From the NCBI GenBank assembly GCA_916048095.2, contig OU696575.1:10364468-10428467 (forward strand): a stretch of DNA of 64,000 bases, given 5' to 3'. Source of the stretch: Sacculina carcini. Taxonomy: Eukaryota; Arthropoda; Thecostraca; Sacculinidae. A program made the translations under genes and the position numbers. The notes under the pieces were generated by a model. That model saw only the letters and a list, made by a program, of their open reading frames with translations, was not told the origin of the DNA and did not search any database. This document shows positions 2,028 to 55,861 of this stretch, piece by piece. Positions within the stretch are counted from its first letter, which is position 1, and each line of letters starts with the position of its first letter.

Positions 2028-2480
2028 GATCTAGAGACTCACACATACACACTGAAAAGTGCAACTCTAACTCTAACAGAAAATAACTCACACCGAAAAC
2101 GATATATGTTACAAGAACTGAGTTACTGTAAAACATCTATTAGAACGGCTTGTTCTATCTTTCAAACCTTACTTCGTAGTGTCGTTCAATTTGAGGGTGC
2201 CGCTCTATTTTTCTACTAGCTAATCAGAACTTTGAGAGGATACGTTGTTTCCTTCTGTTTGAAAAGAGAACTATGCAACGTATGCATATTTATTTAATAA
2301 AAGGCACAATACACGGTGATTACTGGTGTTTAATTAGCGGTACCGTTCTATCAGAGGGTACCGTTCGAATACACGTTTTACAGTATATTCGATGTGTCCT
2401 CTCTTTTTTGTCCGTTGCCTATCGCATCCCAAGTTCATGTGTTCTTGTGGTGTGGGGGCGGTGTAGTTGTACGAATTCAG

Positions 2481-2688
2481 CAGCTTGAACCCGGTGCTGC
2501 GCAAAATCACCGACTATCTGATCGAAGAGGCTTCGGCCGAGGAAGACGAGCTTATGGGCGTGTGTATCAGCTCGGCTCACACCGGCTCCGATCAAGCACC
2601 TCCGTCCGACACCGCCGACCAACAGACGACCAAAAGTGGCGACACTGGTTCCACGGAGACGGTGGATCGCGACGAGGAGCTGATCAAG
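2481..2688 (+). CDS. SRRT: SRRT internal exon (ITDYLIEE region)
   Basis: First SRRT exon in the window. It encodes [22 protein letters not shown], a Ser/Thr/Asp/Gln-rich linker and DRDEELIK. The acceptor is the AG at 2479-2480 (or a CAG three bases further on, same frame). The donor after 2688 is GTAAGC. The exon enters with one base completing a codon and leaves in phase 0. The linker is the least conserved part, as in other ARS2 proteins. Confidence 0.93.
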
Positions 2689-5600
2689 GTAAGCCGCCGC
2701 ATCTGTTGTTGTTAACGTTCCTCAAGTTGTCTGGCTGAACAACCTGAACAAGGAAATCCACGGCTCTGCGACCGGGTCATTCCACGGGTCTGTGGTGGAT
2801 TTGATGTTGTGGCGAAGCCTAAGTTAAGTGTGTGTAGTGTTCCATTCTCCTGTCGGTTGAGAATGTGGTTTGTTTTCTTGTGATGGCTTTGTGTGTGCTG
2901 ACTGCTACCCGACCTGGGCCGAATTCATCACCGCTAGCTCAGGAGGGCTGGTTGAGCCGTTTGCTATCGCTTCGCATTGTGTTTGTTTGAATACAGAGCA
3001 TTTGTTTGTTTGATTAGAACATTGAAGCATTGAACATTGTGTTTGTTCGCATTGTGTTTGTTTGATTAGAACCCAGGATACTTCGGCCTCTGTCGAAGTC
3101 TTTCAACATTAGAAACGCTAGTTCGAATCTGATGTGATCAGATTATGTATCTTAACATCAATTGAAATCTAGTCCAAATTGAATGTTGACATTGGTGTAA
3201 TTTTCTCATTTCGTTTTAAGGCGCTGTGATTTGAATATATTAGAGATTTTCCATAGTTCACCGCCACTGTCATTTGTTCTACCTAGGCGCTTGTTGGATT
3301 AGAACCCAGGATACTTCGGCCTCTGTCGAAGTCTTTTAATCACTCGGCCAATTTGACACTTGTCAGGTTTGTGCAATTTGGCTATTTGTATTCAACAATG
3401 CGCGTTGCTTTTCAGGTGCTGGACAAACTACTGCTCTATTTGCGTATCGTACACTCGATCGACTACTATAACCACTCCGAGTATCCGAACGAAGACGATA
3501 TGCCCAACCGCTGCGGTATCATTCATACCCGCGGCATTCCGCCCAGCTCTAAGGTCAGCCAATCAGTACAATAACATTAACTGTTGCTTTCTACTCAAAT
3601 TTAATGAATGAACTACTTTTTAGATTGAATTGCACAAACGATACATGTTTGTAAAATTGGTGTTTATAATATCCTTAATTATGTTTATTAAATTCAATTT
3701 TATATTTATTTTCAACTAATTTACTAATAAGTCTTTTTAGAGGGTTTCTCGTCAATTTTTTCATCTAATATCTCACGAGTGGAGAGAACCACTCTAGTAT
3801 AGACTCTAGTGAGTGTTGTTTTATAACAGAATGCCATCGTAGGTGGTATTTATTTGTGGTGGCATTTATTGTGATTTGTCTAGCATCAAAGCGATTTCAA
3901 TACATAGCAGTGGTCGGTATGCGAAAGGCAGGAATATTGCATGTAGAACTCAACAGCAAGAGTGTAATGGTTACGTGTAATTGTCCCGAGTAAATGTTGG
4001 TACACGTACGTGAAAATACATGACCAACGAACCAACAAGAATAGGCTTCGTTGAATTGCACTCATGGGGGCAATTGACCCTTTGAAAAAATTGGTGGCTA
4101 TGGTGCCACAGCCACGTGTTATATTCCGTCCTTGTCCAGGGGAGTGCTAACTGGCTCTCCTTTCATACAACACAATTCACCTTGTGTTTGTATTTGGACT
4201 ATATCACATTCATGTGTGTTCTCCAAAGTGGATGTTTCCAAGTTTTTGCTCCATAAGTTGAATGCAGTTGTCTCCTCAGCAATTGTATTATGGTTTTTCA
4301 TTTTTAAATTGTTTTCCAACGTTGAATATTTGCATTTGATACTATGACTCTGGATGTTTTGTTAATTAGTAGCTGTTTTAGTGTATGTAGAGGGCGCCAC
4401 AGTTTGCACGACTAAACTGGATACGTGTGAGACGCCAAGTTTCTTGCTTATAGTGCCTGCTTCTGGAATATTCTCGCGCCATTTTGCACTGCGGCGCTAT
4501 GGTTTCATTTTGTTCCGAATTATCAATAATTTGAACCATTGCTTGGTATTTAAAAAAAAATAAAAACTAACGGAAATTGTGTGGATTTTTACTGGAGAAT
4601 TTTCGGAGCCGAATTTACAGTTTTGTCTATTCTTCTACTTAACTTTGTTGTCATGGAATTATAACGTGGTACAGTGATGAATGTTGAGTGGCAATTTTGT
4701 GTGAAGATATACTGTTTCTTTGAAATCATAATTTCTTCATTTTTCACTGAATGTGGACCAGGTGTTTACTCGAATTATTTGCCTCACCACTCCTCTTATT
4801 CCTCTTTCAAGTCCTCTCTTTTTAGGTATTTGTTATTTGTCATTTGACCCTGCCACTGGTTGCCTTACTCCCTTTCCTACTGTTTAATTGCTATCAGTTA
4901 ATGTTGCGTTTATTCTACATTTTGTTTTCCTTGTGTTGAACCGCTTTGTGACCGGTGTTCACTTCTGTCTTTCGTGGTTTTCAACTGTTTTGTCGCTCAT
5001 GTGTTATATATGCGCTATAGCCAATGCATGTTGTTCGGGTCTACAATGATCTTCCTTCCTCAATCACTTCCTCTTCATCCTGTAGTAGATTTTCCTCCTC
5101 ACTTCCTAAATATCTTTTTGCTAAATCTTTTTATCCCATTTCTCGCACTCTTACACCTTACGCTTCCCTATGACTAATTTACAATTACTTTTGTTTTTAT
5201 TTATTTTCATTTTATTTATCTCCATTTTTTGTTCCTTTCTGTGAATTTTCTACTTCCTTTCTCACGTCTTATAATCGTGTACTGTTGTTTATCATTTTTA
5301 TCTCTCGCGTTTTTCGCGTTCATTGTTGTCATGTTTCTATGTGAGCGTTATACAAATGCTTTATTGTTGTTGTTGTTGTTGTTGTTATTCCAAGTTGAAA
5401 TCAGAACTATACTCCCAGAATTTCGGAATAACCATCTGCAATTTTCGAAGTCAATTTCCGTAGTAACCAGTCTATTTTGAATTGAACCACCGGTTCCAGG
5501 TTGGATAAGTTTATTTAAAGATTAATTTTATTATTTTGTATTATTGTGATGTCGGTTTTGGGGTGTTAGTATATGATTAAGAATTTTACATTCAAATATG

Positions 5601-8600
5601 TCAGTAACTTTTAAACGTATTTTCACCTTAAAAATGGCATTAAGTTATTTACAATTGAACGTTTTCACCGTCAAAATGGGATCATATTGTGTAGAACACA
5701 TTCAACACATTTTGACATTCTTGTTCAATGTTATTTTCTCTCTGTGTCTCGATAATCAGGGTATGTGGGTATTGCTGGCATGTACTTTATAGCGATCGTA
5801 CACTTCCCATCTGAGTTTTTTCATTGATTTCTATAACGCCAATAGTAATGACAATGTTTAGTCCGATATTTAACAAAACAGGCGTGAAATAGTGTCCTAT
5901 GGTCTATACTCTTCCTTCATTAACAAGCGTGTTCATGTGCGGAACACATATAGATGCAATTTGATGTTTGGATTTACAATGTACCCCGGATATAAGAGAA
6001 CCCCGATTATAAGAGAGTATTTCTTCTGGTTCGTCTTCTATATTGTACGTTATTGTACGCGATTTATGAGACTCTCTGCGCTCCCGACTCTTATATTTGG
6101 GTGGTCACTGTATTATGTACCGTAGATGCCTAGTGTTTGTTTGTATTGCACACGGGTGTTGTTGATTTGGTTCAAGGTGACGGCCGATGAGTTGCAAGAC
6201 TACATTTCCACATTCAAAAATAAGATTGGCTCGTTTCATCAGCCAATTCCGCGTCTGGACGATGCAGAATGCAAGAAACAAGGTCTAGGTGGGTGCTAAC
6301 ACACACCGTCTCACCATACACACACACACACATATCGGGAGAATTTAGCTTTGGGGAAGTCTGGTTTGACAGTTGGCAAGCCTCGTGAATAGTAAGCCAA
6401 AGTGATTACGAGCGAGCGACAGCGAGCGAGTTCATACTTGGTGTTACTAGAAAAATGAGTATGAGCGGCCGGCCCGCCGGCCGTGGTCACGCTTTTCAGA
6501 GGCTTATATCTCTGGAACCATAAGTCCGATTAACATGCGTTTTTTTTTGTTGGGCAGCCCAATCCTTCCTGCCGCGAACGAGACTATGCCGAATCATGTC
6601 AGTGCCCAGTGTGACAAGTGGCACGTGCCATATGCCCTCTTATAATTTAGCAGAAAACTTTGCCCATGCACGCAGACAAATGCATTTACGACAAAGTTTG
6701 ATTACATATGATAGCTTCGCGCTCGCTCGTTCATCGCCGAACACGGCGCCTTACTGGTTGTAGCCTTCACCAATGCATGCTAACTCACTATAAAATATGT
6801 AACACATCTACAACATATAACTAAACGATATCGAAAAATAACCGGATTAGGCGGATTCCATTTCAGGCTCGTAAAAGCTTTTCAGGTAGAATTGATAGTT
6901 AGCAAATATAGAATACATGTGTGATGAATGGTTCCAAACATGTCAAATAGAATATAGTTGTGTTTGCGGTTTTAGACAGGCATATGTAAGCGTGCTGGAT
7001 TCCGTACTATAATTCACAATACAAAACGTGAATTAGAAAGAGAATTAGAGATAAGAGGAAAGGTAAGCAATGCAATTATAATAATTATCATGAATTATAA
7101 TGATAATATCGTAATAGTAGTGTTTATTCACATCACATAGGGTGTTTACTATGCGAAAATGGACAGGAAGGGAAATTCACCTCAGAAAAGCAAATTACGC
7201 CACCTCAGGAAATCCAAACGAAGGAAAAAAGCAGTTCACCTCGTATGTATACGTGACCGTCACACACGATATGTCGTTTTCATTTTCAGACACTCAGTAG
7301 AAATGTACTTTTATTGCAGCCAATTATGTTTGCTGTGCTTTCTCGTTTAGGGTTGTTTTTCGATATCGTTTAGTTGTATGTTGTAGATACGTTGCAGATT
7401 TTATAGTGAGTTAGTATGCATTGGTGAATGCTACAATCACTCTGGCTTACTATTCACGAGGCTTGTCATTTTTCTGCTGTGTGCACTGAATATATATATA
7501 TAACAGTTCAACGCTGATTGGTTAATCAACGGCGCCAATTTCAAAATGCTAACGGTTTTGCGTGTACGTGTGCGCTGATTGGTTGATCACGCTCGGTGTC
7601 CGCTAGCTTGAGCTGTGATTGGCTGTGGACGCGCTGTCTATTTGCTAAATGGGCGCTGATTGGCTGTTCCTTGGCAGTGCTGAAAATCGCCGACGATGAG
7701 ACGGAGAAGTTTGTACAAGCCAACACGCAGGAATTGTCCACGGACAAGTGGTTGTGTCCCCTGAGCAACAAGAAATTCAAGGGTCCCGATTTTGTGCGCA
7801 AACACATTTTCAACAAACACTCGGAGAAGATTGATGAGGTTAAAAAAGAGGTGGGTGCACAGACACGCATTGGTTGACGTTTTTTTATTTTTTTATTTAG
7901 CTGCTGGCGATTAAAGGATATATTGAATTCAATGAATGGCTGGTACATGGTAGCATATTATTTGATAACGATATGCTGAACTGTGTAAGTTATTCTGGTT
8001 TCATAACAACAGTGGCTGATAGATGATATTTGATAGTTCGTCTCTTCTGCCGTACAGTTGTTATACTTATCTTTGTAAGAATTGCTTCATGTTTTGTTTT
8101 GTGATGTATGCCGATATTTTGTCCCACATATTGTGCTACCATTTGGAAAATGTATCTTGGCATTTATTTTTTCCCATTTTTGAATGATTTTTATATTATT
8201 TCCTCTGTGTATGCATATTTACGTGTTATTTCAGCTTGTTTCAAGATAAGTTTTAGTAATGTCAACGTTTATTTTCATGGAATCGCCGATAGTGCTCGTG
8301 TGGTTTTCCAGGGCAGTCTTTTATTAGTTGTTTGTGGCGCTTTGAGGTGGTGTATCTAATCACTAGGGTGACCTTTTGTTGCAAATGCAACTTTTTCATC
8401 ATATAATCTGTTCATCATAGGAGCCCAAAAATCAATATTGTATTGATCTGAGGTAAGTATTAAATAAGTTATAAATGCAACTTTTTGTTTTTAGCGCAAC
8501 TTTTGCCACTTTTTTCAGTTTTAAGAGCCACTATTTAGATTTAGGACAATTTTGAACTTTTAGAACAATTGTTTCATACTATGAAGAAAATGTTTCAGTT

Positions 8601-11506: not shown

Positions 11507-11569
<63 letters not shown>

Positions 11570-14500: not shown

Positions 14501-17500
14501 GTTCGTCTGGGGAGCGAGGTACTGCCGGCGCACAAGTATACCGCGCAACGGCCATTCGCCGCCGTGTGCTGGGATACGCCAAGTTAGATCCGGGATTTTG
14601 GCGCTTGGCAGTGTTAAACAACTGCACAAGACGCTGAGGCTCACTGCGTGCCAGCTCGTAACACTGTGCTCGACAGCGTATGTCTGCCAGCGTTTGCTCG
14701 CAGGGCAGGTGATTGTGCTCCTGCCCGATTCGCACTGAGTCACCGCTGCGGATCGCCGAGCCCGTACAACCACTGTGCTTGCAGCGGAAATACTCTCGAT
14801 CGCGTTTGCTCCATTTACGATGATACACGAAGCCGTCCAGGTGATAATGAGCCATAACTCGTTTTTGACACAAAACCTCGATGCGCTCCATCATGAAAAC
14901 GATCAGCTTATTGGATGTCTGCAATACACAAATACAACAACATTTATTGAACATACAACAACATTTCACATACAACAAGTATTATTAGTATTTTATAGTA
15001 TTTAGTATTCAGTTCAATTCAATTCAATTCAAGTGTATGAATCCACACAAAAGCTTTGCTCATCATGGTCATCATTCATTGCATATCATTGCATCATACA
15101 TACACACATATATACACAAATACACATACATACATATATATACACATATATTTATACATACATATACACACATTCATACATGCATGCGTGTATATCTACT
15201 GACACACTCACACACGCTCGCACACTCATACATAAAGTAGTTGTTCTATTTAAAGTAACCAATTTTTCCAGTGGTAGAACTCTATATTTTACAAATATTT
15301 GTCTTGTGCTTTCTCTAGAAGATTTAAACTCAATTAATCTAATTATTCAATTTTGCAATTTACATGTTTCCAAATTACTTTTAAATGTTGATCCCCATGT
15401 TTCATTGCAGTAAGACAGTTGAGATCTCACTAGGCAATTATATAATAATAAGAAAGTTTTAATATTTATTAGTGGCCTGACCTGTCTTAACATAAAGGCT
15501 ATTTTTGCCATTTTTGCTTCCAAGTTCTTGATATGCCATTTCCAACTGATCATAATGATTAAGTACTCAAGAAAGGTGTGTTTGCATAGTTAAATATATT
15601 TTTTAAGTTAATTTTTGGTTTCTCTTACACATTTTGCATTTTTTTCGGATCAATGCCATTTCCAATACCACAACGGTGTCACCCACTCGCTGAGAATATA
15701 TGAAGCCGGACAAGGACACTGAAACTTACGAATTTTAGCTATAATTTATTTTTTTAAAGTATTTTTTTAATTTTTTTACATTTTTTATAATATTTTTTCA
15801 TTTGTTCCGCATCAATGCCATTTTCAATACCACAACGGTGCCACCCACTCGCTGAGAATATATGAAGCCGGACAGGGACACTGAAACTTACGAATTTTAG
15901 GTATAATTTATTTTTTTTAAGTATTTTTTTAATTTTTTTCGGATCAATGCCATTTCCAATACCACAACGGTGTCACCCACTCGCTGAGAATATATGAAGC
16001 CGGACAAGGACACTGAAACTTACGAATTTTAGCTATAATTTATTTTTTTCAAGTATTTTTTTAATTTTTTTACATTTTTTTAATATTTTTTCCGCATCAA
16101 TGCCATTTCCAATACCACAACGGTGTCACCCACTCGCTGAGAATATATGAAGCCGGACAAGGACACTGAAACTTACGAATTTTAGCTATAATTTATTTTT
16201 TTTAAGTATTTTTTTAATTTTTTTACATTTTTTATAATATTTTTTCATTTTTTATGCATCAATGCCATTTTCAATACCACAACGGTGCCACCCACTCGCT
16301 GAGAATATATGAAGCCGGACAAGGACACTGAAACTTACGAATTTTAGCTATAATTTATTTTTTTCAATTATTTTTTTTATTTTTTTTACATTTTTTATAA
16401 TATTTTTTCATTTTTTCCGCATCAATGCCATTTTCAATACCACAACGGTGCCACCCACTCGCTGAGAATATATGAAGCCGGACAGGGACACTGAAACTTA
16501 CGAATTTTGGTATTTTTATTACGAAAGTTGGTATTTTTATGAAGTTATTTGACCCAATCGCTGAAATTATTTTTGCAATAATTTTCTGCACCGACTTTTT
16601 TAGTTCTATATGAACTATTTCTAAGCATCTCTGCACCGATTTAAATGTTAGGCCTGACAAAACCATCAAAATTAACTAAATTGGTATTAATTATTACAAG
16701 TTTTTCACAATTTTTCCAGTCTACCGTCATTTCCTTCAAGTCTTACTCAAGTTTTATTTCTTTTTTGTTTTCTTTTGAATATTTCAAATTGTATATCTGC
16801 TTCAGTGCCATTTTAAACTCCGCCAAAATATATCCAAGTGTTTATATCACGCGTTTTACGGTTTAATGAGTTTTGGAGAACGGTTGTACATACCTTCCTC
16901 TAGGACACCCATTTTACCAAGCAATACCCTTAAGCCATGAACAAGAATTCACATTCACAATGCCAGAATAAGCCCACTAAATTCCAAACAGCTATAAATC
17001 AATTCATCGGATAGCTCAAATCCTACGGTACAATGACTACAGCCTAATATATGCAACAAATAGAAATATGCGCCATAATGTACAATTGAAACAATACATA
17101 TAACACACGTAGATCTATCATTAACCCTAATCGGATACTCATCAACTTTATCAAAATGGGCCAAATCCATAAACACAAATACGCTAAATAATGCAACATT
17201 CACCAAAAAACACATAATAAACCAAACCCTTGCAACCAATCGCTTCTCATACAACTAAACACAAAAAGTAAACCACGAGTAAACACGGTAAACCACAGGC
17301 AGGAAATGAGCAACGTTGGAATATAGGCGCATCACATACAATCACGTGCATTATCTCATCAGCTTAGATTAACAGTGATGCCAAAGGCATAGAAAGGGTT
17401 GGTGAAAGGGTTGATATATTCACTGAGTTTATGGAATAAATAAATCAATCAAATATATACATGTAAATGAATTAGTAATCGTCTTATACGACTAAAACAA

Positions 17501-20500
17501 ATAAAATATTGAAGTAAAAACTAGATTAACATTGACGTTTAGATTTACAGTGATGCTTAGATCAACAGTGATGCCAACGCATAGTTTTATCTTGGTGCAT
17601 AGTTTTTTCTCAGTTATTCATTTGAAACGTGCTTAAATAATGAACAAAGTGTTGAATTATATGTGATGTGCATATTTTAATGTTTGTTTTCAAATGATAA
17701 ACAAGCAATACACTGTGGCATATACATTTTTTGGAATTGATGTACTCTTGTTAATGACAAAGACATGAGTATACAGCAAAAAACATGTGAAAGTCGTCGA
17801 TTTAATTTGTTCGGTAATATTTTTTCTTCTAAAACTCCTGATACACAGAGATACACAGAGATACACAACATGTAATGATTCATGTTCAATAGTGAACCTT
17901 GTGCCAGTCGCGAAACGAGTGCAAGACATGTTTACTCATCATGCATTGATTCATTAAACTTCAAATAGGTTACCAATGCGCTGGCGCTGGCAATAGGAGT
18001 AGTGATAATTATTTGAATAGTCAAGTAAAGACGTATAGGACCAAATTCAACAATCCATTTGAGGTATAGAACCAATTAAACGCTAAGAACCCCTGATCTC
18101 AACTGACCTGAAGAGATGCAAAACTTACCGACTTAACTTAACTTAACTTACTTACCGAAATATACTCACCTTTACCTGTTCAAGACAAGTCACCATTTAA
18201 ACTCAATCAACACTGAACCCTAGCTGCCGTTTCGTTTCGAAATTGGCCCCTAGGACACTCACGTCAAGTTGCCTTCACAAATTTGGCAGTCTTCGTAGTG
18301 AAGCCAGCCTACTTTGGCAAATGGTTGAAGGCAATATTTGTTGCATCACATACAAGCAGCTACAACTGCTCGAAACTGCCGCCCTTCTCAAACAGATTTA
18401 TCAAGCCTGTTTATTTACCTGTTGAACCTATCGGCTATTGTGTGAGTTGTGCTGCGCATATGTGAGTAATATAGCAAAAGTGATAGTAATTCATTATTTC
18501 GGCAGACGAATAACACTATCAAAACTATCATATATGTAATAAATCTCTGCTAAAGAAAACATATCGTATAATGCAACTAGTCACTATAGATATACGATAT
18601 TCAGGCTTTGAATTGTAAGTGTACACGTTAATTTGTTTGAAAACCACTGAAGTTCATACAGCTGATGGGAAATTGGACCAAATGGTCACTCGCTGAATTT
18701 TCAGTCACTGGGGACGCCACTGTGTTAAGTTGCGATGCGATGCACACCGACTATTGGACCAGATGGTATGTTGGATCAAATGGTACTAGAGCCTTTTCGG
18801 CGGCGTGATTGTCTGCTCCCATATTGGGCTTCCGTCGTATGAGCAAGGGTTTAGCCTCACATAAGTACACCAACACTATCAACGTTTTCAAGCATTTCTG
18901 TGGACTGCTGAATTAACTGATGCATGAGATTGCTCTTCCACAGAGTTTCACGGTCATTTCATTTTGAATGGTTCGCAACCGATTGACCTGGTCTCGGTAG
19001 TATTTAAGTGGGTTGACTATGCCTACGTATGCACTCCAATTCCAATCTTCAAAGGTCCACAATTATTCAGTTAGTTTCTTGTGTAATCTGTCAATGGATG
19101 ACTAATGATCTGTTTGTGCTTGATGTGTTGTGTATGTCGTGTGTTGATGCTGGATTGCATCCAGCCTCTCATTATCTCAAGTGTCCCAGTTATTCATTCA
19201 CTTAGTTTCACTTGAATGGCAACGGCAAGATATCTGCTTTCAAGCCAGCGGTATTTTCTCCATGAATGGGTTTTCATCATGCGTTACTGTGTGGCGTTGC
19301 ATAAACCTTGTAATATTCAAATGGGCCTATGTGCGTTCAATGCACGTGATACTTGCTATATGAGCTGTGTGTGTGGGCGTAATGTTCTTGTCATAGAGGC
19401 AATTTGTTAGTTTGTCATCCAAGGCCACTTTGTTCTTGTGATTTAATCAGTGATTAGGATGAGAACTAATTTGTCCAATTGACTGGATCTGTAATTGGTA
19501 ATTCAAAGTGTAAACAAATGGTTTTGCTTGATTTGGTGGCGTATCTGTAATGTATTCGATCACGATTCATCTCATATCACATTGAAATTATGACGCAGTC
19601 CACCGAACTGAATGGTTCGTTTGTTGGCGCAACTTCACAAGTTTGCGCCATTGCATCAATGTATGATAGTTTCAGTTCAATGAACACTAATGACGCCTAC
19701 CAATCGGTTAGAAAGTTGACACGTTTGTGAGCGTATTAACCGTTGGAGTGACGTTTTTTGTGTATTTGTCTCAGCTGCTTGTGTGATTAGTGAACGTAAT
19801 TCAGACCCTGGCTTTCAGTTGACTTTCAGTGTTATCATTGTCAGCTTCATGCGCGCCATCACTGCCACTTATTTTCTCTTCTTTTTGTCACCGTGTGTGT
19901 TGGCCGCGTAGGTTGAGTTTTTCAACAATTACTTGCGGGATCCGAAGCGGCCCCAGCTGCCCGAGCACCCTTCGTCTCGCGCTGCTGGTCGCAAGGACAC
20001 TGGGGCGTCGTCCTCCAGTGCCGCCGGGCATTTCCACGGGGGCGGTTACCCGCCTCCAGCACCTCCCCCTGGACATCACGCGTGAGTACCGCTCCTTAAT
20101 AGTCCTCCGATTGTTACTTTTCAAGTGTGTCGATCAGTCTTTGGTGTAGAGTGGAATTGATTCATGGATATTTCAAGTCTATAGTATTTGATAAATGTTG
20201 GTCCTAGTTTGAGCCTTATTGTGATTTTAAGATTTCTTCTTGAAGACTTGTCGACTGACAGTTGTCATTAATCAGTCAACAAAAGTGAGTGTAGTTTGTG
20301 TATTGTTTCCAATGTCACTTGGCTAAACGATAATGTGTAAGGATTTTAATTCAATCGTTCTATATCTCATGCTAATTCTCCATTGATTATCATTTCGGTT
20401 TTCTGTTTCCTGTTTTTTTTTATTGACTGAATTGGAAGAAGCGGTTTTTAAATGGCACATAGCCTTGGTATAGCATGCATATGACCTTCTCTTTCTCAAA

Positions 20501-23500
20501 TTTATTTCATCTCGCTAATTATCCCACAAAAGTTAATTGGTATGGTAGGCGATGACTGTGACTATGCGACTTCTTGTACTGGGCCACATGGCACCGGCAG
20601 GAAGAAAATTATTACCTCTATCTTGCGTTTCCGAGATAGAATTTTACATCTACCTTGCATAGCCGGGAAACCCCTGACATCTCCCATGCTGTGAGCAAAA
20701 CAATGCCACATTCCATCTCTGCGTTGTTTTGTGTGACATCCAGCGGTTACTCTGGCTACGGATACCAGCGTTCCGGCGCCGGTGCTTATTCCGGATCGGC
20801 CGGAGGTTACCATCACCATCATCAGGCCGCGTCATCCGGAGCTGTCCGGGATCCTTACTATCGTGAGCCGTACTTGCCTCCGCGCGACGCTTATCCGCGT
20901 CCACCACGTCCGCACGGCAGAAGGTGAGCGCTTTACGCAGCACAAACACTCACTAACACATGTGATGGTATCAGTGTGCATTTATATTGCTAGGCGTTGG
21001 TGCAGAACAGTGATCTGATGCTTTTAAGAAACTGCACTGAAAACGGAGAAATCAATATTGAATCCGAACGTTCCAAAGTGTGGAAGTGAGGATGGTTAGA
21101 AGATCAGCCAGGGCGAGATGTGTAGCAGAAAAGTCAAGATGTTTCTAGACCAGTGATCCGTAACCTGTGGTGGATTCCCCACTGTTGGGGAATGGAGGGG
21201 ATACTAAGTGGAAATGAAAGGTAAGACAGATGGACAAATGTGTGTTTTATTCATCCGGTTATTTTTCCATTGACTTCCTGATATTGAATTTGGTGTAAAA
21301 ACTAAATGTACTGGATCTCTCAACGCTTTTGTGGAAAATCAAAAATTGGCTCATCAGGTAGTGGAGAATCAGGGATAAAGGGTTACTAAGATTGTTGGAG
21401 GGATAAATGTGTATGTGGCACCTAGAAGGATACATGTGTATTTGTAGAGTTAGTGTGTGTTCTTATTGCACTTCATTCAAACAGTGGGTTTTCAGTGCAG
21501 CCACAAAGTACACATTGAGAAAATCAATACTTATTCGTGTAATAATATACTTGCTCTGCTAGCGGAGGCCATCGCTCTTTTTCAACGCTACATTTTAACA
21601 TTTTAACATTTTCATAAAAATAATATCCCATTATTATTGCATACAGGACAAAGGAATGTACAATTGACTCTTTCAAGGTAGTATGGGCTGAAAAAGAAGC
21701 CAAAATAGTTATTTGTTGTCTTGAAAATTGCTTATAATTGCACATATATAATTATAATTACATATATAATTGTAAGTAGCTAAACATGGGTATAATTTTA
21801 CTTTTAAGTAAAGGTACGTTTAATTCCAAAGTAGGTTATACTTGAATATTTATCACGGCAAATATGAGGATTCACGCAAATGATGAAACAGACATATATA
21901 TGAAGGACTTCATTTTTCCGCTGGCCTTTTTCTAGATTTTGAGGCAAAGTGGCATAGATGTCATACGTTGAAACATGTTGAAGCATTCAGTGTCATCTTC
22001 ACTCAAATTGGCCATAACTGTGGAAATCAGTCAATTATATGGCAGCAGGAACGGTGACGGGCTTCATTGATGAAACACTACATATCCATGTCCATGATGA
22101 AACATTTTCCTTTGTCGATATCAAGATGATACTGTAGTTTTCTATCCAGACTGATCTTCTAACATTTTTCACTAATCCAGACGTTCACATGCTTTTCAGA
22201 TGATTTCCTGTGTTTAAAATGAGATACCAAGCGAATGCGATGCATTGCTGTGGCACAGAAATCACATGGAAAATCGAACAGCTTTGAGTCGAAATCGAAT
22301 CCAATGACACGACCTCTTGTATTCGTTATAGTAGCTGTCGCCCCCTTGACACATTCTAGTTCTTATGCCGCAATATGCTTTTGAGCGGTGTCGCAGAGAT
22401 CATAGAGATATCCGATCGCAGAGATCATGATCTTACATCGTCTGTACAGCTCTTCATCTTAACACCCGCCAGAAGTGTTCCTTCAGTCTGCCTTGTTAAG
22501 TGCCACTCAAAATGTCACCAGAAAATGAAATAGTTGTCCGAGTATGTACTTCATGTATCAAGAGAAACACATTCATCTGTTGTAGTCTTCACTATCAGAA
22601 TTGCTTTCTTTATCACCTGATTCTCGCCAATAGATGAACTGACGTACTGCAGCTTGTGTATGACAGCATCCAAAACCCTCTGAGCTGAATCGTCAGAAAT
22701 ATCAATTACACGTGTTTACACAACCCAAGCGAGCTTATTATACGACTTCAAACGGAGCTACGGATATTTCATGTCAGGTACGTTTGGTCCAGCTTCAGTG
22801 CCGGCTCTCATTCTCAACTAATCTAGCCTAGCTTACTCAACCTTACCTTACCTAACAATGAGAGAGATACGGGACTGAAGCGGGAACAAACGTACCTGGG
22901 CGTAACAGATCGTTCTCCCTCAAACCATTATTAAAATCAAATATCTCATTGAGCGGTACATTTGCGCCTTTGTTGAATACACTGCAGATCAATGTACTTC
23001 ATGACAGGGTCTTTCGACCAGGACCATGAATGAGCCATTTGGAGGAGTTCGCTACTTGGAGGGTCCACTATAATAATGTTCTTGTATTGCTTGTGTAGAT
23101 TGCGTTCGGGTTTGAACGCAGTCTCAAATGAAGCAATGGTGTCCTGAGAAAATGTCTCAGTTCATTATATTCAGCCTTCGCCGGGCGAGGTACAGGCTTA
23201 ACAAATTACAAACATGAAGCATACTCATTGAAGCCACTAGGAGCAATGGCTGGTTTCGTAGAACCGCCTAGAAATTTGACACATGGATGGTTAACAGGTC
23301 AGTATTTTTAACAGACAATATACTCGTCAGGACCAACAACAAATTTCTTGAATGATGTTGTCACATCAAGCCACTTCTGCAGTGGCGGCGCCAGGATTTT
23401 TCCCGTGGGGGCTAAGGAAAAGGATACAGGGCTTGGCGAAACATCAGGAACCACACTCGAAATGCTCATTATCAGGATGTTCGGGGGACTCAGCATATTG

Positions 23501-24307
23501 CTTTGGGGAGGGGTCTTCAGCCCCTCTGACCTCCCCCCTTTTTAGCCGCCTCTGCACTAATGTCTCTCACAATGGTCATTTGGCTGACGAAACACTCGGC
23601 ACCTTGTAGTTATTTCCGTTGCAGCTCACAACAACACACTTGTTCAACAATGCAAGCAATACTGCAGATTTCAACACTTTTGCAGCAATATAACAAACTC
23701 CATAACTCTGCTAACACATACACACACACTGTCAGGCCAATATACGGTTGTCTGATGCTGACGCAACTTCGTTCACAATATCTCCCTCGACCAATCATAA
23801 TTAAGCTGATGCACGCGTCGAATTAGATACAGCACCAAATTGTTCACTACACTGTCCTGCGGTAGCTGAATTAGATACAGTTAACTCGCAAGTTAGTAAC
23901 ATGATGGGCGCCAAGAGTCTTCATTACCTTTTCCCCTTTGTTTTCAAATATTGTTCATATTAAGAATATTTGTACATGAATTTCAAAAATTGCGATATAT
24001 CTTATACAGGTGTTTATAGATCTGGAATAATTAGAACTCTATGAATCGGCAGCTTCTATTATTATAGACTCACATTTAGGATACACATTTTAAGATGACT
24101 AATCCGTTAGTACATACTTGAAGGCATTTCATATGAAATATTCAACAGAACAGCATTGCAAACAGCTCACATGAATTCTATTAGCGCTCAGAATTGTTCA
24201 AATTTGCCATCACCTTTCAAACCATTTTTTTAGTTTTAGAATTATGTTTGTCCATCCCGGCTCTCATGTACTTGCTGAGTTTGTCCAAACACCACTTGTG
24301 TATGTGT

Positions 24308-24339
<32 letters not shown>

Positions 24340-25266
24340 TGACAGGGATCCCCGTGGGCTAGTGGCATACAATGACCTGGACGCCCCAGTCAGCTCTGAA
24401 CTATTCTAGCCAGTGTTCGGTAGTGACTGGCAAAGCCACGCACACACACACACACACAAACACACATAAAGTGGTTGAATAATAGCTTTCAAAAACTAAA
24501 TATTAAATGTTCATATGTCAATTTTTTCAAATTGGGTTATAGAATTAGAAATGAATATACCATCATGTAAGATGTGTATTCTAGGGTGTATTGTCACTAC
24601 TCTACGTAGTTCTCATCAGAATATGAATTATTGCGAGTACATGGACGTGTTTATAGGTGTAACTGGGTGTCATTATTTTATATTGTTTATTTCGCTCGAG
24701 TTTTCTCAGTTGTGCATGTAAGGATTCAATCACGTATGTGTGCGTATGTGTATGTGTGTGTGTTCACTTCAGTATAGTATATTCATTCTACTTTATGCCT
24801 TATATATTCATATATACCTTATGCCGTATATACCTCATATATCACCTTACATACCTCATTCTAACTTATATCATATTTCTCTCATAATTATTACCATATT
24901 TCATATTTCCAATATGTGCAGTGTTAATATTTGCAGCTTATTTCATTTGTGTTTTAATTGTGTCAATTTCATTGAGTTTGTCATTTAGTATGTGTTTCAA
25001 ATGTGTCATTCGTTATGATACCGTGTGTCATATATCATACTTTAATTATTAGATCTATAATTATAACAGTAATCACATTTTTAGTTTTAATTCAGTCGTA
25101 TGTTTTGTGGATGATTGTTCACCCACTTAGGTGTGTTTCCTATATGTTTGTGTATACAAACCTATTGTTCATGTGTGTGTGTGTGTGCTTGTGTGTGTGT
25201 AGGTTTAATCGGTCTCTGAACAGCTATCGAGACTTGGACGCTCCTAAAGAATCTGATGATTTCTAG
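2481..25266 (+). CDS. SRRT: SRRT / ARS2 (serrate RNA effector), 3' half of the gene, seven-exon chain with two alternative last exons
   Basis: ARS2 is a nuclear scaffold that links the cap-binding complex to RNA processing and decay (snRNA, histone mRNA and miRNA precursors). The spliced frame reads through all junctions: ITDYLIEE, then [10 protein letters not shown] and CGIIHTRG, then [12 protein letters not shown] and [15 protein letters not shown] (zinc finger), then [19 protein letters not shown], then a Gly/Tyr/Pro/His-rich tail and a terminal DLDAP peptide. The order and spacing match animal ARS2. The Arg-rich N-terminus, the DUF3546-type helical region and the RRM lie upstream of the window. 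Introns are about 0.7, 2.6, 1.4, 12.1, 0.7 and 3.4 kb (4.3 kb to the second last exon), and they host most of the mobile elements here. No frame break was seen in any exon. Identity is secure. The oddity is the duplicated terminal exon. Confidence 0.95.
3063..3358 (-). repeat. tRNA-like (SINE-head) sequence, one fuller and one partial copy
   Basis: On the minus strand, 3358 to about 3295 reads TTGGCCGAGTGATTAA (A-box-like), an arm with ACTTCG paired to CGAAGT, and CCTGGGTTCTAATCC (B-box-like), so it resembles a Leu/Ser-type tRNA head. A second copy of the ACCCAGGATACTTCGGCCTC part lies at 3066-3110. Fold and ends are incomplete, so this is a tRNA-derived repeat rather than a working tRNA gene. 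Confidence 0.5.
3416..3553 (+). CDS. SRRT: SRRT internal exon ([10 protein letters not shown] / CGIIHTRG)
   Basis: A 138-bp, 46-codon, phase 0-0 exon. It starts after a TTTTCAG acceptor and ends at AAG before GTCAGC. It encodes [30 protein letters not shown] and [13 protein letters not shown], one of the most conserved ARS2 stretches. The preceding exon ends ..LIK, giving the family junction LIK-VLD. Confidence 0.96.
5020..5390 (+). mobile_element. LINE 3'-end fragment with (TTG)n tail
   Basis: The frame around 5028-5173 reads [29 protein letters not shown], the C-terminal W-N-LP..I...S...F...LK..LF signature of CR1/L2-type LINEs. A T-rich 3' UTR and a (TTG)n tail at about 5362-5387 follow. 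Upstream T/C-rich sequence from about 4740 may belong to it but is too degraded to read. Confidence 0.5.
5977..6110. mobile_element. pogo-type MITE (CAGTG.ACCCCGGATA family)
   Basis: Termini CAATGTACCCCGGATATAAG and, reverse-complemented from the right, CAGTGACCACCCAAATATAAG are imperfect inverted repeats. A TA dinucleotide lies just outside each end (5975-5976 and 6111-6112). It is related to the copies at 26939-27040 and 63201-63387. Confidence 0.65.
6177..6288 (+). CDS. SRRT: SRRT internal exon ([16 protein letters not shown])
   Basis: A 112-bp exon between a TTCAAG acceptor and a GTGGGT donor, phase 0 in and phase 1 out. It encodes [20 protein letters not shown] and [12 protein letters not shown]. 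It corresponds to the moderately conserved helical segment between CGIIHxRG and the zinc finger in ARS2. The split codon G|TG restores the frame with the next exon. Confidence 0.88.
6378..7464. mobile_element. Unclassified DNA element with ~110-bp inverted termini, interrupted by a second insertion
   Basis: The left terminus AAGCCTCGTGAATAGTAAGC continues, after an interruption, as CACCAATGCATGCTAACTCA and AACTAAACGATATCGAAAAA. The right terminus (about 7350-7464) is the reverse complement of the joined left side with only scattered mismatches. The interruption at about 6409-6764 is GC-richer and bounded by GAGCGAGCG/CGCTCGCTCG inverted motifs, so it is probably a younger insertion in the left arm. 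The interior 6850-7350 has no recognisable transposase. No clear target duplication was found. Confidence 0.55.
7517..7663 (+). promoter_or_regulatory. Cluster of four same-strand ATTGG (inverted CCAAT) boxes just 5' of an SRRT exon
   Basis: ATTGG occurs at 7517, 7578, 7618 and 7659, each within GCTGATTGG(T/C)T or GTGATTGGCT, spaced 61, 40 and 41 bp. The cluster fills the intron end right up to the zinc-finger exon. CCAAT boxes are bound by NF-Y. The repeated CTGAT also fits branch-point consensus, so the cluster could be an internal promoter, a set of branch points or a decayed tandem repeat. Confidence 0.35.
7678..7850 (+). CDS. SRRT: SRRT zinc-finger exon
   Basis: A 173-bp exon, acceptor CTTGGCAG, donor GTGGGT, phase 1 in and phase 0 out. 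It encodes [35 protein letters not shown] and [16 protein letters not shown]. The Cys of WLCPLS and the His pair of KHIFNKH form the atypical zinc finger that is the effector and RNA-binding surface of ARS2. This is the best-conserved segment and leaves no doubt about gene identity. Confidence 0.97.
8364..9476. mobile_element. 1.1-kb hAT-type non-autonomous element
   Basis: The termini TAGGGTGACCTTTTGTTGC and, from the right, TAGGGTGACCTTTTGGTGC are near-perfect inverted repeats. The flanks CTAATCAC (8356-8363) and CTAATCAG (9477-9484) match at 7 of 8 positions, the 8-bp duplication expected of hAT. The interior is rich in short degenerate units (TTTTTAGCGCAACTTTT) and has no transposase. Confidence 0.85.
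9915..10115 (+). repeat. Dispersed repeat, copy 1 (inverted copy at 18640-18812)
   Basis: Shares GAGTGACCATTTGGTCCAAT, TTTCCCATCAG and GAACTTCAGTGGTTTTCAAA with the reverse complement of 18640-18812. Both copies also carry a TCGGCGG block at the far end. Coding sense and family are unknown. Confidence 0.6.
10100..10260 (+). repeat. Short tandem duplication, ~51-bp unit
   Basis: GCTTAGATGTGCCGTTTAAT followed by GATTGCCCTGTGT(A/G)AACTGGGCGTTTGT occurs twice in a row (about 10112-10209), then decays into TGTGTAAACTG units. Likely replication slippage. Confidence 0.65.
10270..10552 (+). mobile_element. tRNA-headed SINE, copy 1
   Basis: A B-box-like GGTTCAAACCCCGGCGGG is followed by a body shared with 59150-59456: CCCCTGTCCAC, AATGGTACCAGATATCAGTC, GTGTTGTGTCATGCATTCTG, GAGAGGGTCGGTTCTGCGGT, GGCAGCGAGCTGC and TTCGGCTTCTTCC.GTGTA. 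The head upstream of the B box differs from copy 2, so it is rearranged or from a different subfamily. It lies in the large SRRT intron. Confidence 0.75.
11490..11800. repeat. (AT)n, T-run and CA microsatellites
   Basis: (AT)n at about 11513-11565, an uninterrupted T run at about 11734-11756 and a short CA/TA stretch at 11761-11795. Open frames across this stretch are repeat translations. Confidence 0.9.
11867..12455. repeat. Minisatellite, alternating ~87/~97-bp units (about 184-bp higher-order repeat)
   Basis: Six units, marked by CAAGAATACCAAAACATC at 11898, 11985, 12081, 12169, 12266 and 12353, so spacings are 87, 96, 88, 97 and 87. Long units carry an extra CTTCAAGAAG. Copies differ at only a few positions. 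The unit lacks stops in minus-strand frames, so the MULE reading frame continues through it. Confidence 0.9.
12216..14978 (-). CDS. FLYWCH zinc finger + MULE transposase (Mutator-like element), open frame
   Basis: A single uninterrupted 920-codon frame. Residues about 20-90 form a FLYWCH-type zinc finger (Cys66, Cys71, His88, His90, with DGFVYHRKW). Residues about 200-400 form the MULE catalytic domain: VDGTF (Asp214), an LMTKRT.GLY block, ADFER (Asp284), GCFFHYTQ (His308) and NNAVEGFN (Glu395), a plausible DDE triad. From about 500 the chain is acidic, Ser/Thr-rich and repetitive: a tandem [12 protein letters not shown] pair and two copies of an [19 protein letters not shown] module. Beyond the second module the frame is translation of the minisatellite, so the natural stop has probably been replaced. 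Met29/30 (start about 14894) is possible, but TSNKLIVF upstream fits the FLYWCH start, so Met1 or Met9 is kept. The gene lies antisense in an SRRT intron. Terminal inverted repeats were not identified. It looks recently active or domesticated. Confidence 0.88.
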   Translation of the reverse strand: MLYVKCCCMFNKCCCICVLQTSNKLIVFMMERIEVLCQKRVMAHYHLDGFVYHRKWSKRDREYFRCKHSGCTGSAIRSGDSVRIGQEHNHLPCEQTLADIRCRAQCYELARSEPQRLVQLFNTAKRQNPGSNLAYPSTRRRMAVARYTCAPAVPRSPDELASVLEQCPRYGNGILGDEFYRGKVTAGDNGGVALIFLSSRLQFLLCADCEIFVDGTFHVCPQLFQQLFTVHTRYNDMFIPTAFVLMTKRTAGLYRAVWHKLIAITSSATSDIATTFSPKTAMADFERAIHSSLVDVFPNVQMKGCFFHYTQAVIRKARSLRLNAFRGPVKQVCALPSLPSHLLQAGFDAIKEEIVEPSANMTRFLEYVSRHWLSRVDAETLSHFDQVHRTNNAVEGFNGRLRWKLHGNPGIFQCLDELRNKSLESRQMIRVSWSSRRTVHNARGRRKLLQRQLMAGYRLAASIGLNSFEELRSYLSHMGNIVSGPNVGHSIVGHDDVDDVSSTESIPVASGETVSPSSHMDDIDGVSVDQHMDDIDGVSVDQHAPNSPHVENEIDRDYQFTPPSRNVNVNELGVTDDWFPPTQSLSPAQIETTNAQLTSGDVDPFLSSNLLYRVGAAVVGGLEERESVVDGHVADDEVDREGLLFMSPSRNVDCVSVIDGCQLSMGWLSRTQSSDESTSAQLAPGEVTNPLVDPNVRRSGTDVEADRPVATASAAESTDAAELLPGIGELIAQGLSTRQAYRRHKTLKRIRDGKYRLSETQSSNESTTVPLAPGDVGNQLSTPRVCKRKASFEADRPVAAASVAESNDAAELLPGIGELIDQGLSTRQAYQRRKICFDQNFVSQLFWACLVSDGFLKLLEEAVLWLIGWRCFGILAAVLGRFRERWLLEEAVLWLIGWRCFGILAAVLGLFRERWLLEAS
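15060..15240. repeat. (CATA)n/(CA)n-rich low-complexity tract
   Basis: Runs of ACATACAT, ATATATACACAT and CACACTC units. It lies between the MULE 5' side and a LINE scrap. No gene. Confidence 0.85.
15245..15560 (-). mobile_element. Non-LTR reverse transcriptase fragment
   Basis: The minus-strand frame 15553-15347 reads [37 protein letters not shown] and [15 protein letters not shown], the thumb-region pattern of LINE polymerases (W..HI..L..K..K....LYN.LV.S.LSYC...WG). Neither the palm domain nor a 3' tail is recognisable nearby. A short, old fragment. Confidence 0.65.
15645..16515. repeat. Satellite-like array: conserved ~95-bp core with T-rich linkers, six copies
   Basis: The core runs from CAATGCCATTTCCAATACCA through CACCCACTCGCTGAGAATAT and GAAGCCGGACA.GGACACTG to TTACGAATTTTAG. 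It starts at 15651, 15813, 15945, 16098, 16260 and 16423 (spacings 162, 132, 153, 162, 163). Cores are almost invariant, while linkers are A/T homopolymer-rich and vary in length. No coding sense was recognised. Confidence 0.9.
16516..18639 (+). other. SRRT intron, AT-rich, no confident feature
   Basis: Scattered short repeats (CAGTGATGCC units about 17360-17580, CTTAA units about 18130-18150). One minus-strand 99-codon hydrophobic frame at 16955-17254 is discussed as a finding but not called as a gene. Confidence 0.5.
18640..18812 (-). repeat. Dispersed repeat, copy 2 (inverted relative to 9915-10115)
   Basis: GAAAACCACTGAAGTTCATA, GATGGGAAATTGGACCAAAT and GGTCACTCGC mirror copy 1. The stretch CAGTCACTGGGGACGCCACTG corresponds to the CAATGGCGTACCTAGTGACTG part of copy 1. 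The two inverted copies bracket about 8.5 kb that includes the MULE gene. Confidence 0.6.
18813..19911 (+). other. SRRT intron end, no recognised feature
   Basis: Unique sequence with no coding exon or repeat I could identify up to the acceptor at 19911. Confidence 0.5.
19912..20081 (+). CDS. SRRT: SRRT exon ([19 protein letters not shown])
   Basis: A 170-bp exon, acceptor GCGTAG, donor GTGAGT, phase 0 in and phase 2 out. It encodes [20 protein letters not shown], then a Ser/Ala-rich linker and [18 protein letters not shown]. The first 20 residues are a hallmark of ARS2 directly after the zinc finger. The Gly/Pro-rich tail is the usual low-complexity part. Confidence 0.95.
20744..20923 (+). 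CDS. SRRT: SRRT exon (Gly/Tyr-rich tail)
   Basis: A 180-bp exon, acceptor ATCCAG, donor GTGAGC. It encodes [25 protein letters not shown] and [18 protein letters not shown], a disordered Gly/Tyr/Pro/Arg tail like that before the C-terminal peptide in other ARS2 proteins. It ends with two bases (AG) of a split Arg codon, completed by the single G that opens each alternative last exon. Confidence 0.88.
21154..21391. mobile_element. hAT-type MITE, same family as 56542-56799
   Basis: The left end CAGTGATCCGTAACCTGTGG is followed by GATTCCCCACTGTTGGGGAA, nearly identical to the inverted right end of 56542-56799. The right end GGGTTACTAAGATTG is a decayed inverted copy. The right boundary and target duplication are not clear. 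Confidence 0.5.
22020..23350 (-). pseudogene. Degenerate minus-strand coding remnant of unknown origin
   Basis: Several short protein-like stretches in shifting frames on the minus strand, for example [40 protein letters not shown] with CDFC..H..H-like spacing, [20 protein letters not shown] and [20 protein letters not shown]. Stops and shifts break it many times. I do not recognise the family. An old transposon gene is the simplest reading, but a processed host pseudogene is possible. Confidence 0.3.
23380..23554. mobile_element. Short hAT-type MITE (CAGTGGCGGCGCCAGGATTTTT family), copy 1
   Basis: Left end CAGTGGCGGCGCCAGGATTT, right end reverse-complemented CAGAGGCGGCTAAAAAGGGG. The flanks CACTTCTG and CACTAATG agree at 6 of 8 positions. 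G-rich interior. Relatives lie at 47235-47411 and 54310-54510. Confidence 0.65.
24300..24340 (+). repeat. (TG)n tract ending at the acceptor of SRRT last exon A
   Basis: About 40 bases of TG with two interruptions, directly followed by TTGACAG, the acceptor. It serves as the pyrimidine/purine-alternating 3' end of the intron. UG repeats in RNA are known binding sites of TDP-43-type proteins. Confidence 0.9.
24346..24409 (+). CDS. SRRT: SRRT alternative last coding exon A
   Basis: Sixty-four coding bases: one G completing the split Arg codon, twenty codons ([20 protein letters not shown]) and TAG. In vertebrate ARS2 the C-terminus is [20 protein letters not shown], so this exon keeps DPR..V.Y.DLDAP and the final Phe but has lost the acidic stretch after DLDAP. 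In other animals this peptide binds the nuclear cap-binding complex. No close AATAAA follows. A (CA)n tract begins 28 bases after the stop. Confidence 0.85.
24438..24466 (+). repeat. (CA)n tract downstream of SRRT last exon A
   Basis: CACGCACACACAC.. about 28 bases, complementary to the (TG)n tract just upstream of the same exon. Confidence 0.9.
25168..25201 (+). repeat. (TG)n tract ending at the acceptor of SRRT last exon B
   Basis: TG repeat with one CT interruption, running straight into the TAG acceptor at 25200-25202. Confidence 0.9.
25203..25266 (+). CDS. SRRT: SRRT alternative last coding exon B
   Basis: Again sixty-four bases in the same phase: G, twenty codons ([20 protein letters not shown]) and TAG. 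Ten of twenty residues match exon A, including DLDAP and the terminal Phe. This version keeps YRDLDAP and the acidic tail of the vertebrate peptide but lacks the DPR start. Equal length, equal phase and the same flanking repeats argue that A and B arose by tandem duplication and are spliced alternatively. Either could be the main form. Confidence 0.82.
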
Positions 25267-25859: not shown

Positions 25860-25865
25860 AATAAA
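25860..25865 (+). promoter_or_regulatory. Candidate polyadenylation signal for SRRT
   Basis: AATAAA about 595 bases after the exon B stop, in AT-rich sequence. It is the first canonical hexamer I noticed downstream. Its use is inferred only from position. Confidence 0.35.
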
Positions 25866-28400: not shown

Positions 28401-29083
28401 AGCTGAGTAGAGACTGCCTTATTAGGCGCAACACACCTTAACGCCTCTTATCGCCGGAATCTACCAGCACGCTTGTTTTGTGCCATAACACAGTGTGGGC
28501 GTGTGGATCTCAGCTAAGGCAAACATGATGAACTCGGTATTTGCGAACGTAGAATTCCTCAGCATCGCAAGATAGACAGATTGACTGACAGTCGGACATA
28601 TTTGTGGGCTTGTGTGCGCGTGTATGTGCCCGTAAGTATTTGTGTCTGTTTGTGAGTGTTTATTTTTGTATCGGCCAATGTTTGCTTGCTCTGCCAGGCC
28701 AATTGCGGGTGTATTTCGTCAGAGATAGGGATTTGGTCGGTTGGTGATTTTGGCCGCAGAATCAATGTTTTTGTGATTCTAGCGTCGACCACTTGAATCA
28801 TTGTACTTTGGTAGTTATTTGTGTCTTTCTAGCGCTAGCATTTGTGTACGAGTTTAGACATGAATCGTGTGATTTCACCTTAATTGCTAGAGTTGTGAAA
28901 AATTAGATGCGGCGAAATTGTGCACAAACATTTTTGATGCGTGTGGTCAAATTTTCTGCCGATGTCGGAACTGCCTATAATATGGATTTTGATTAAATCG
29001 AGCCTGAAGAGACCAGAACAGCACATACCTTGCCGAGGATCATGAAAGTTCGTATTACGAAAGCCGGATTATCTTAGATCTCC

Positions 29084-29408
29084 ATGAACAACGTCACTAA
29101 CAATATGACAGCGTCTTCGCTGCTGCAACAAGTTGAGGACACTCGCCGCATCACTCAGACGTTCCTTATTCCTCTGGTAACGTCGCTGGGTTTCTTCGGC
29201 AACTGCTTGACCATGCTGGTGCTAAGTCGTCGTCGAATGCGCTCGTCGACCAACAGCTACCTGACGGCTCTGGCCGGATCGGACTCGATGCATCTTCTGG
29301 CCAGTTTCAGTTTATCGCTGATGCATTCGGTGCAGGGCATCAACAGTGTCGAGCATCGGTTCTATTGGATCTACTGGCCGTACGCCCTGTGGCTTGCCGA
29401 CGCATCAA
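29084..29408 (+). CDS. Rhodopsin-family (class A) GPCR, first coding exon, partial gene
   Basis: The 108-codon exon begins at ATG six bases after an ATTATCTTAG acceptor, so an untranslated exon probably lies upstream, and ends at a GTAAGT donor in phase 1. The extracellular N-terminus has sequons at Asn3 (NVT) and Asn7 (NMT). TM1 is about residues 27-49 with the diagnostic GN pair (Gly39-Asn40). The basic loop SRRRMRSSTNSYL leads into TM2 with LTALAGSD (Asp67 = 2.50), and the exon stops before TM3. The RMRSSTN.YLTALA signature is typical of peptide receptors such as the FMRFamide-receptor-like group, but the ligand cannot be told from TM1-2. No TM3-TM7 exon was found to the window end, so the gene either continues beyond 64 kb or is truncated. 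Confidence 0.78.
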
Positions 29409-29859
29409 GTAAGTTCACCTGTTTTGATATAATCGTTTTTTTTACATTGTTCCGTGTTTAACTTGGTTACTATTGATATCCACAAACAAGGCTAATTTGG
29501 GAAGTGCTGGAAACGATATATGGAGATAAAACATATTTAAAATTAAATTTGACGTAACGTAATTTAAATTACTCATAAACACACACACAATGCACAACAA
29601 CAGTAAATATAATGCAACGATGATTAAATATATCTAATTGAATATAAGAATAGTTCGAAATTTGTAATTGTATATATTTCTCACCAGTAAATATCTTAAA
29701 GTATTCACTATATAACATCAATATTTTACTTGCGGACAATTTGACTTTCCGCATCTTATTTTCAAGACACATTTCTTCACCTGGCATGTTCCATATTTCA
29801 GTAGACCGATGGCTGAAACAGCACTGAATCTGATTTGTACGCCTTCTGCATGTTAAGGT

Positions 29860-55858: not shown

Positions 55859-55861
55859 TAG

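Follow-up and report, generated by a model that had tools for sequence, protein, structure and literature searches.

Two tandem last coding exons of ARS2 in Sacculina carcini probably encode alternative docking peptides for the cap-binding complex

The ARS2 locus

Through ARS2 (SRRT), the RNA cap is linked to export, to processing of the 3' end, to small-RNA pathways and to decay. The 3' part of the ARS2 gene occupies the first 25 kb of a 64,000-nucleotide stretch of Sacculina carcini DNA (contig OU696575.1, positions 10,364,468-10,428,467, forward strand; hereafter the window, in whose coordinates all features are given), and the 5' exons lie upstream of it, for a gene span of about 45 kb. 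The gene closes with two homologous, tandem last coding exons, A and B, and the sequence makes it probable that they are interchangeable, that they stem from one old duplication and that each gives a peptide docking on the cap-binding complex (CBC). The ARS2 exons in the window are as follows.

2467..2688, forward strand: ARS2 coding exon, from alignment to human ARS2, with consensus splice sites
3416..3553, forward strand: ARS2 coding exon, aligning to human ARS2
6177..6288, forward strand: ARS2 coding exon, placed by eye, with compatible splice phases
7678..7850, forward strand: ARS2 coding exon, with a PF04959 match at window 7683-7853
19912..20081, forward strand: ARS2 coding exon, aligning to human ARS2
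20744..20923, forward strand: last common coding exon, common to both isoforms, ending in ...GGC AGA AG (a split Arg codon) and followed by gtgagc
24346..24409, forward strand: alternative last coding exon A, from direct reading, the chance test and A-type tails of relatives
25203..25266, forward strand: alternative last coding exon B, from direct reading, the chance test and B-type tails of relatives

The spliced Sacculina protein scores 154.9 bits against the Pfam family ARS2 (cut-off 30) and 107.4 bits against SERRATE_Ars2_N (cut-off 27.3). The junction of two exons upstream of the window (about -9091 and -7857) is unphased and was bridged at the protein level, which is irrelevant to the tails. 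An ARS2 family profile search of the 264 Mb genome (43 contigs) gives one matching locus; a second ARS2 gene, sought across the genome by this search, was not found, and exon A occurs once in the genome.

The highest-scoring protein record is P0001, a frame of 876 residues on a 2828-base contig from a barnacle-like source, and it carries tail B. It is almost certainly a spliced transcript, because the same span in the Sacculina gene is broken by many introns. The closest named records among the matches listed are from the barnacles Pollicipes and Amphibalanus. A FastTree phylogeny of the C-terminal half of ARS2 joins Sacculina with P0001 (0.968), and these with Pollicipes and Amphibalanus (0.997). 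By this comparison Sacculina is a barnacle or a near relative of barnacles, and it may fall outside the stalked and acorn groups.

Two homologous last exons

Exons A and B are preceded by the acceptors ...tgttgacag and ...tgtgtgtag, and the first G of either one completes AG/G, an Arg codon, after the donor at 20923. Each exon consists of this G, 20 codons and TAG (64 bases including the stop codon), and each encodes a tail that contains DLDAP and terminates in Phe. The two homologous tandem exons share one phase and one upstream donor, as alternative last exons do. Their peptides are identical at 10 of 20 residues and the exons themselves at 31 of 64 bases. With so few bases alike the copies are not recently duplicated, and a recent local duplication of the tail exon is ruled out.

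An earlier note on this DNA had described the exons in these terms (64 bases, the shared split Arg codon, DLDAP in both, Phe plus TAG, 10 of 20 residues alike), and the description is borne out by direct reading and by a chance test. The test took every frame in 94 kb, on either strand, that shares the layout of A and B: AG, one base, 20 codons and a stop. Among the 144 such frames, with A and B excluded, the next best match to tail A is 4 of 20 residues. In 300 approximate dinucleotide-block shuffles the best match to tail A ranges from 3 to 7, and 7 is reached in 3 of the 300.

Tail pairs in other arthropods

Relatives were collected by two protein searches. One contributed its best 120 of 1193 matches and the other, directed at flies, its best 120 of 1332; together they gave 232 distinct proteins. 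With the two Sacculina tails these make 234 sequences. In 178 of them a tail motif, found with Tyr as the search anchor, is recognisable within the final 32 residues, and in 56 it is not; many of the 56 (uncounted) visibly end before the tail region. A protein database search with the 40-residue tail alone returned only the query itself.

The earlier note had proposed aligning both exons with ARS2 of related species, and the records of relatives hold A-type as well as B-type tails, in fruit flies and ticks among others. Twelve hand-picked A/B pairs come from barnacle, locust, tick, spider, bee, flies, Daphnia and shrimp, 11 of them within one species and one between two Penaeus species. The members of each pair are identical up to an Arg and diverge at the next residue in 11 of the 12, and one residue later in Daphnia. 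For example, isoform X1 of Amphibalanus amphitrite has the C-terminus DPRSIVDYRDLDAPPDVDLL, and X2 has a different tail. For eight species (Schistocerca gregaria, Dermacentor andersoni, Eufriesea mexicana, and Drosophila innubila, yakuba, teissieri, subpulchrella and tropicalis) the two isoforms are on contigs of equal size, which are taken to be the same contig. Sacculina tail B is identical to Amphibalanus tail B at 14 of 20 residues and to that of P0001 at 17 of 20.

Contacts with the cap-binding complex

In the sections on the tail in the report of the human CBC-ARS2 crystal structure (PMC5670239), the C-terminal tail is the apparent sole contact of ARS2 with CBC, with a proximal site for residues 852-861 and a distal one for residues 868-871. 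The contacting residues given there are Asp852, Arg854, Ile856, Tyr859, Asp869 and Phe871, and the grip is mainly via Arg854, Tyr859 and Phe871. R854A and Y859A together severely weaken binding, and F871D alone has no major effect. DLDAP, the most conserved motif of the tail, has no density in that structure and apparently no contact to CBC, and the same sections refer to phosphosite evidence for human Tyr859.

At the human spacing, Arg854, Tyr859 and Phe871 (human numbering, used throughout) are present in both Sacculina tails together with DLDAP, the terminal Phe lying 12 residues past the Tyr. Position 852, where the human Asp supports Arg854, is Asp in tail A, which also has the Asp852-Pro853 of the human peptide, and Phe in tail B; position 869 is Glu in A and Asp in B. 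The human tail unites A and B traits (Asp852, Arg854, Tyr859, Arg860, DLDAP and Phe871), and the solved peptide is a single tail, whereas Sacculina has two from alternative exons. When compared with solved structures, both Sacculina tails best match the human peptide in 5oo6, at weak E-values (0.012 and 0.51) for a query of 23 residues.

The receptor surface is also largely kept. Sacculina CBP20 has Y50, E53, M71, L73, K78, Y89 and D107, with A80 replaced by P, and CBP80 has Y461, S558, H561, C616, M648 and H651, with I609 replaced by L and R610 by K (the human query piece was verified against a solved chain). The genome holds one strong CBP20 locus, besides three weak RRM matches, and one CBP80 gene region, so tails A and B most likely face the same receptor. 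The C-terminal peptide of NELF-E docks at the same site with Arg, Tyr and Phe as key residues, according to the structural report in the part that treats it (PMC5670239), but it comes from a separate gene that competes with ARS2, unlike the two Sacculina tails, which come from one gene. The NELF-E tail was sought in the Sacculina genome and not found, the sole match being a weak, RRM-like one (E 8.7e-5).

What separates A from B tails

Among the 178 tails there are 45 distinct A-like and 48 distinct B-like sequences, divided by whether position 860 is Arg (B) or not (A), with the Amphibalanus A tail moved to A by hand; it counts against the comparison that the labels rest on position 860 and that related species are counted separately, so that neither set is made up of independent tails. 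DLDAP is intact in 46 of the 48 B tails and in 23 of the 45 A tails. Arg854 is present in 46 of 48 B tails and 44 of 45 A tails, the sole A exception being P0095 (Darwinula stevensoni), which is arguably misfiled. At position 871, Phe is present in 36 of 45 A tails and 18 of 48 B tails. B tails as far apart as those of flies and ticks have Arg860 together with DLDAP. The earlier note had set the VSSELF end of tail A against the acidic KESDDF end of tail B. That contrast is real in Sacculina but is not the difference that recurs among the tails, which lies in the retention of DLDAP.

Since DLDAP has no density and makes no apparent contact with CBC in the part of the structural report that covers it, part of the A/B difference suggests a less direct reading than a tuning of CBC binding. 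The two tails may instead bind CBC about equally, and the switch may serve a DLDAP partner, phosphorylation of Tyr859 next to another residue at 860, the stability of the protein, or the two 3' untranslated regions. This is a serious contender, rated somewhat below an even chance. It is consistent with the presence of Arg854 and Tyr859 in almost every distinct tail, whether A or B (the Tyr being the search anchor), and the lack of DLDAP contact and the phosphosite at human Tyr859 (PMC5670239, same sections) also point this way. The region that differs between A and B, however, includes positions 852 and 866-871, which partly contact CBC in the structure as there described, and this counts against the reading.

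One origin or several

Nine A/B pairs were scored with each lineage left out in turn, and the A/B labelling was ranked among 256 within-pair label swaps. It ranks 1 on the full tails, 1 without position 860 and 2 without the YxDLDAP core, with 16, 16 and 15 of the 18 tails correctly assigned, respectively. Positions 852-858 alone assign 13 of 18 tails correctly, and positions 866-871 alone assign 14. With coarser lineages (insects, chelicerates and barnacles each held out whole) the labelling comes 1st, 2nd and 3rd among the 256 swaps, with 15, 15 and 13 of 18 tails correct.

A single duplication predating the crustacean/insect split is well favoured by these comparisons. That the same duplication also covers the chelicerates is suggested less firmly, mostly by Arg860 and the shared junction. 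The spider B tail is always scored as A, and the tick B tail is scored as A once position 860 is omitted; both chelicerate B tails are thus nearer A without that position, which makes chelicerate membership weak and tells against a common origin there.

Duplications may have arisen more than once across arthropod lineages, for example separately in chelicerates. We consider this unlikely, though it has several points on its side: the behaviour of the two chelicerate B tails, the shortness of the tails (about 20 residues), and the mean identities (8.9 of 20 residues for A-A, 10.2 for B-B and 8.3 for A-B). C-terminal swaps are also enriched among human tandem exon duplications, making up 77 of 236 events in the portion of the survey that lists them (PMC9741552). 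The rank of 1 among 256 label swaps, the divergence at or beside an Arg in 12 of 12 pairs, and the recurrence of Arg860-DLDAP in B tails from flies to ticks all favour the single duplication.

Flanks and transcript ends of the two exons

The immediate surroundings of exons A and B contain the following candidate elements.

24300..24345, forward strand: (TG)n tract and exon A acceptor
24502..24507, forward strand: candidate poly(A) signal ATTAAA, 93 bases past the exon A stop, a hexamer match only
25165..25202, forward strand: (TG)n tract and exon B acceptor
25860..25865, forward strand: candidate poly(A) signal AATAAA, 594 bases past the exon B stop, a hexamer match only

CA-rich sequence lies shortly 3' of exons A and B and of two upstream exons, so that complementary repeats could enclose each. 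Folded as RNA, the (TG)n/(CA)n flanks are predicted to form hairpins stronger than those of 100 of 100 mononucleotide shuffles for each exon. These hairpins are given no weight as a signal, because complementary simple repeats fold anywhere and because (TG)n-rich tracts precede several other ARS2 acceptors too (15 exons examined).

The region just past the exon A stop bears on a different arrangement, in which exon A is a skippable, stop-containing exon. When included, it would be joined from a donor at 24420 to exon B, which would then be 3' untranslated sequence, and when skipped, tail B would be made. A GT is present at 24420 (TCG/GTAGTGA), leaving 10 untranslated bases after the stop, but the donor is a poor consensus match by eye and ATTAAA follows 93 bases past the stop. 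This arrangement is doubtful, and it would give the same two proteins. Least probable of all, and very unlikely, is that Sacculina makes only one tail while the duplicate copy decays: the low base identity (31 of 64) and the mere 11 of 20 residues that Sacculina A shares with Amphibalanus A would suit such a relic, but neither exon has lost its frame, stop, acceptor or contact residues, Sacculina B keeps its 14 of 20 and 17 of 20 residues in common with the B tails of Amphibalanus and P0001, and the records of relatives hold both tails.

Known exon-swap systems and earlier descriptions

Tandem duplicated exon substitution and alternative last exons are a known arrangement (e.g. tropomyosin C-termini), in which homologous tandem exons swap a homologous C-terminus and which is often ancient, as far as the relevant part of the survey goes (PMC9741552). 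Sacculina ARS2 differs in exchanging a defined protein-docking peptide. SRRT or ARS2 does not occur in the main text of that survey of tandem exon duplications, nor does Ars2 or CG7843 occur in PMC8055025 or PMC4617972. Tail isoforms go unmentioned in the accessible portions of PMC5923425 and PMC7078254, and of three papers containing DLDAP in the openly searchable literature, PMC5670239 alone is about ARS2.

A description of an ARS2 tail swap was not found among the matches listed from that literature, which consists of open papers without their supplements. The earlier note's statement that no ARS2 with two alternative tails had been described holds to this extent, yet both isoforms sit unremarked in public protein records. 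The public arthropod ARS2 isoforms (Amphibalanus X1/X2, Schistocerca gregaria X11/X13, Dermacentor andersoni X2/X6 and the Drosophila X-isoforms) show the same two tail types splitting after the same Arg, but are listed merely as numbered isoforms, and no account of the tail swap accompanies them in the literature searched.

A model for the two tails

Splicing from 20923 to 24346 would give tail A, and splicing from 20923 to 25203 would give tail B. In the model favoured here, a tandem exon duplication, probably a single one, took place before the crustacean/insect split and perhaps before all living arthropods, and both copies were retained. RNA of Sacculina would use both exons, and either tail may dock on cap-bound CBC through Arg854 and Tyr859. 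Tail B would add Arg860 and a nearly always intact DLDAP. Tail A would keep the CBC grip with a DLDAP freer to drift, so that A may be a docking tail only and B may both dock and serve the function of DLDAP. Exon choice would then likely alter some further property of cap-bound ARS2, in addition, perhaps, to its affinity. The earlier note's central idea, two alternative last exons encoding CBC-docking peptides, is well supported by the recurrent isoform pairs and the kept contacts; that exon choice tunes CBC binding is what we infer beyond this.

Several points weigh against the model. The candidate poly(A) signal of exon A is a bare hexamer, the isoforms of relatives are mostly predicted records, and the pairs were hand-picked from two lists that each ended at 120 matches (out of 1193 and 1332). 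The Amphibalanus and Trichonephila pairs lie on contigs of differing size, no contig goes with one Daphnia pulex record, and the B record of the spider (Trichonephila) is labelled UNVERIFIED_CONTAM; a second gene, a haplotype or an error could still lie behind the pairs from Amphibalanus, Trichonephila and Daphnia pulex. Sacculina A matches Amphibalanus A at 11 of 20 residues versus 10 of 20 for Sacculina B; being hardly nearer the former than the latter, tail A appears to change fast. The B tails lacking Arg854 are two distinct tails from four Drosophila records (P0159, P0160, P0162 and P0163), barnacle B tails have no acidic residue at 852, and Drosophila and decapod B tails are two residues shorter at the end. 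Tail A of barnacles, flies and decapods still has DLDAP, which means that some lineages do not show the proposed division of labour.

If true, two conserved tails would let arthropods change their grip on the cap complex, or what accompanies that grip, by splicing. A wider version of the model is an ancient arthropod cap-complex switch, in which the duplication predates the arthropod radiation and regulated exon choice sets DLDAP function and competition with NELF-E in flies, ticks and barnacles; this is tentative, coming near to an even chance but not reaching it. The A/B pair also amounts to a natural experiment on the puzzle of DLDAP, as A tails often drop the motif yet keep the contacts, and a comparison of A with B within one species would directly probe its role.

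Other features of the window

The large ARS2 intron at 7851-19911 contains, in antisense, a 921-amino-acid open frame (12216-14981, reverse strand) with a MULE transposase domain (44.4 bits), the C-terminal part of which looks by eye like a short repeated unit. At 41846-45441 (reverse strand) there are pieces resembling a retroelement polyprotein by eye (reverse transcriptase, RNase H and integrase-like). An open frame at 29078-29461 (forward strand) looks by eye like the first part of a seven-helix receptor, and a 116-amino-acid open frame at 55525-55875 (reverse strand), without obvious low complexity, is possibly an exon of another gene.

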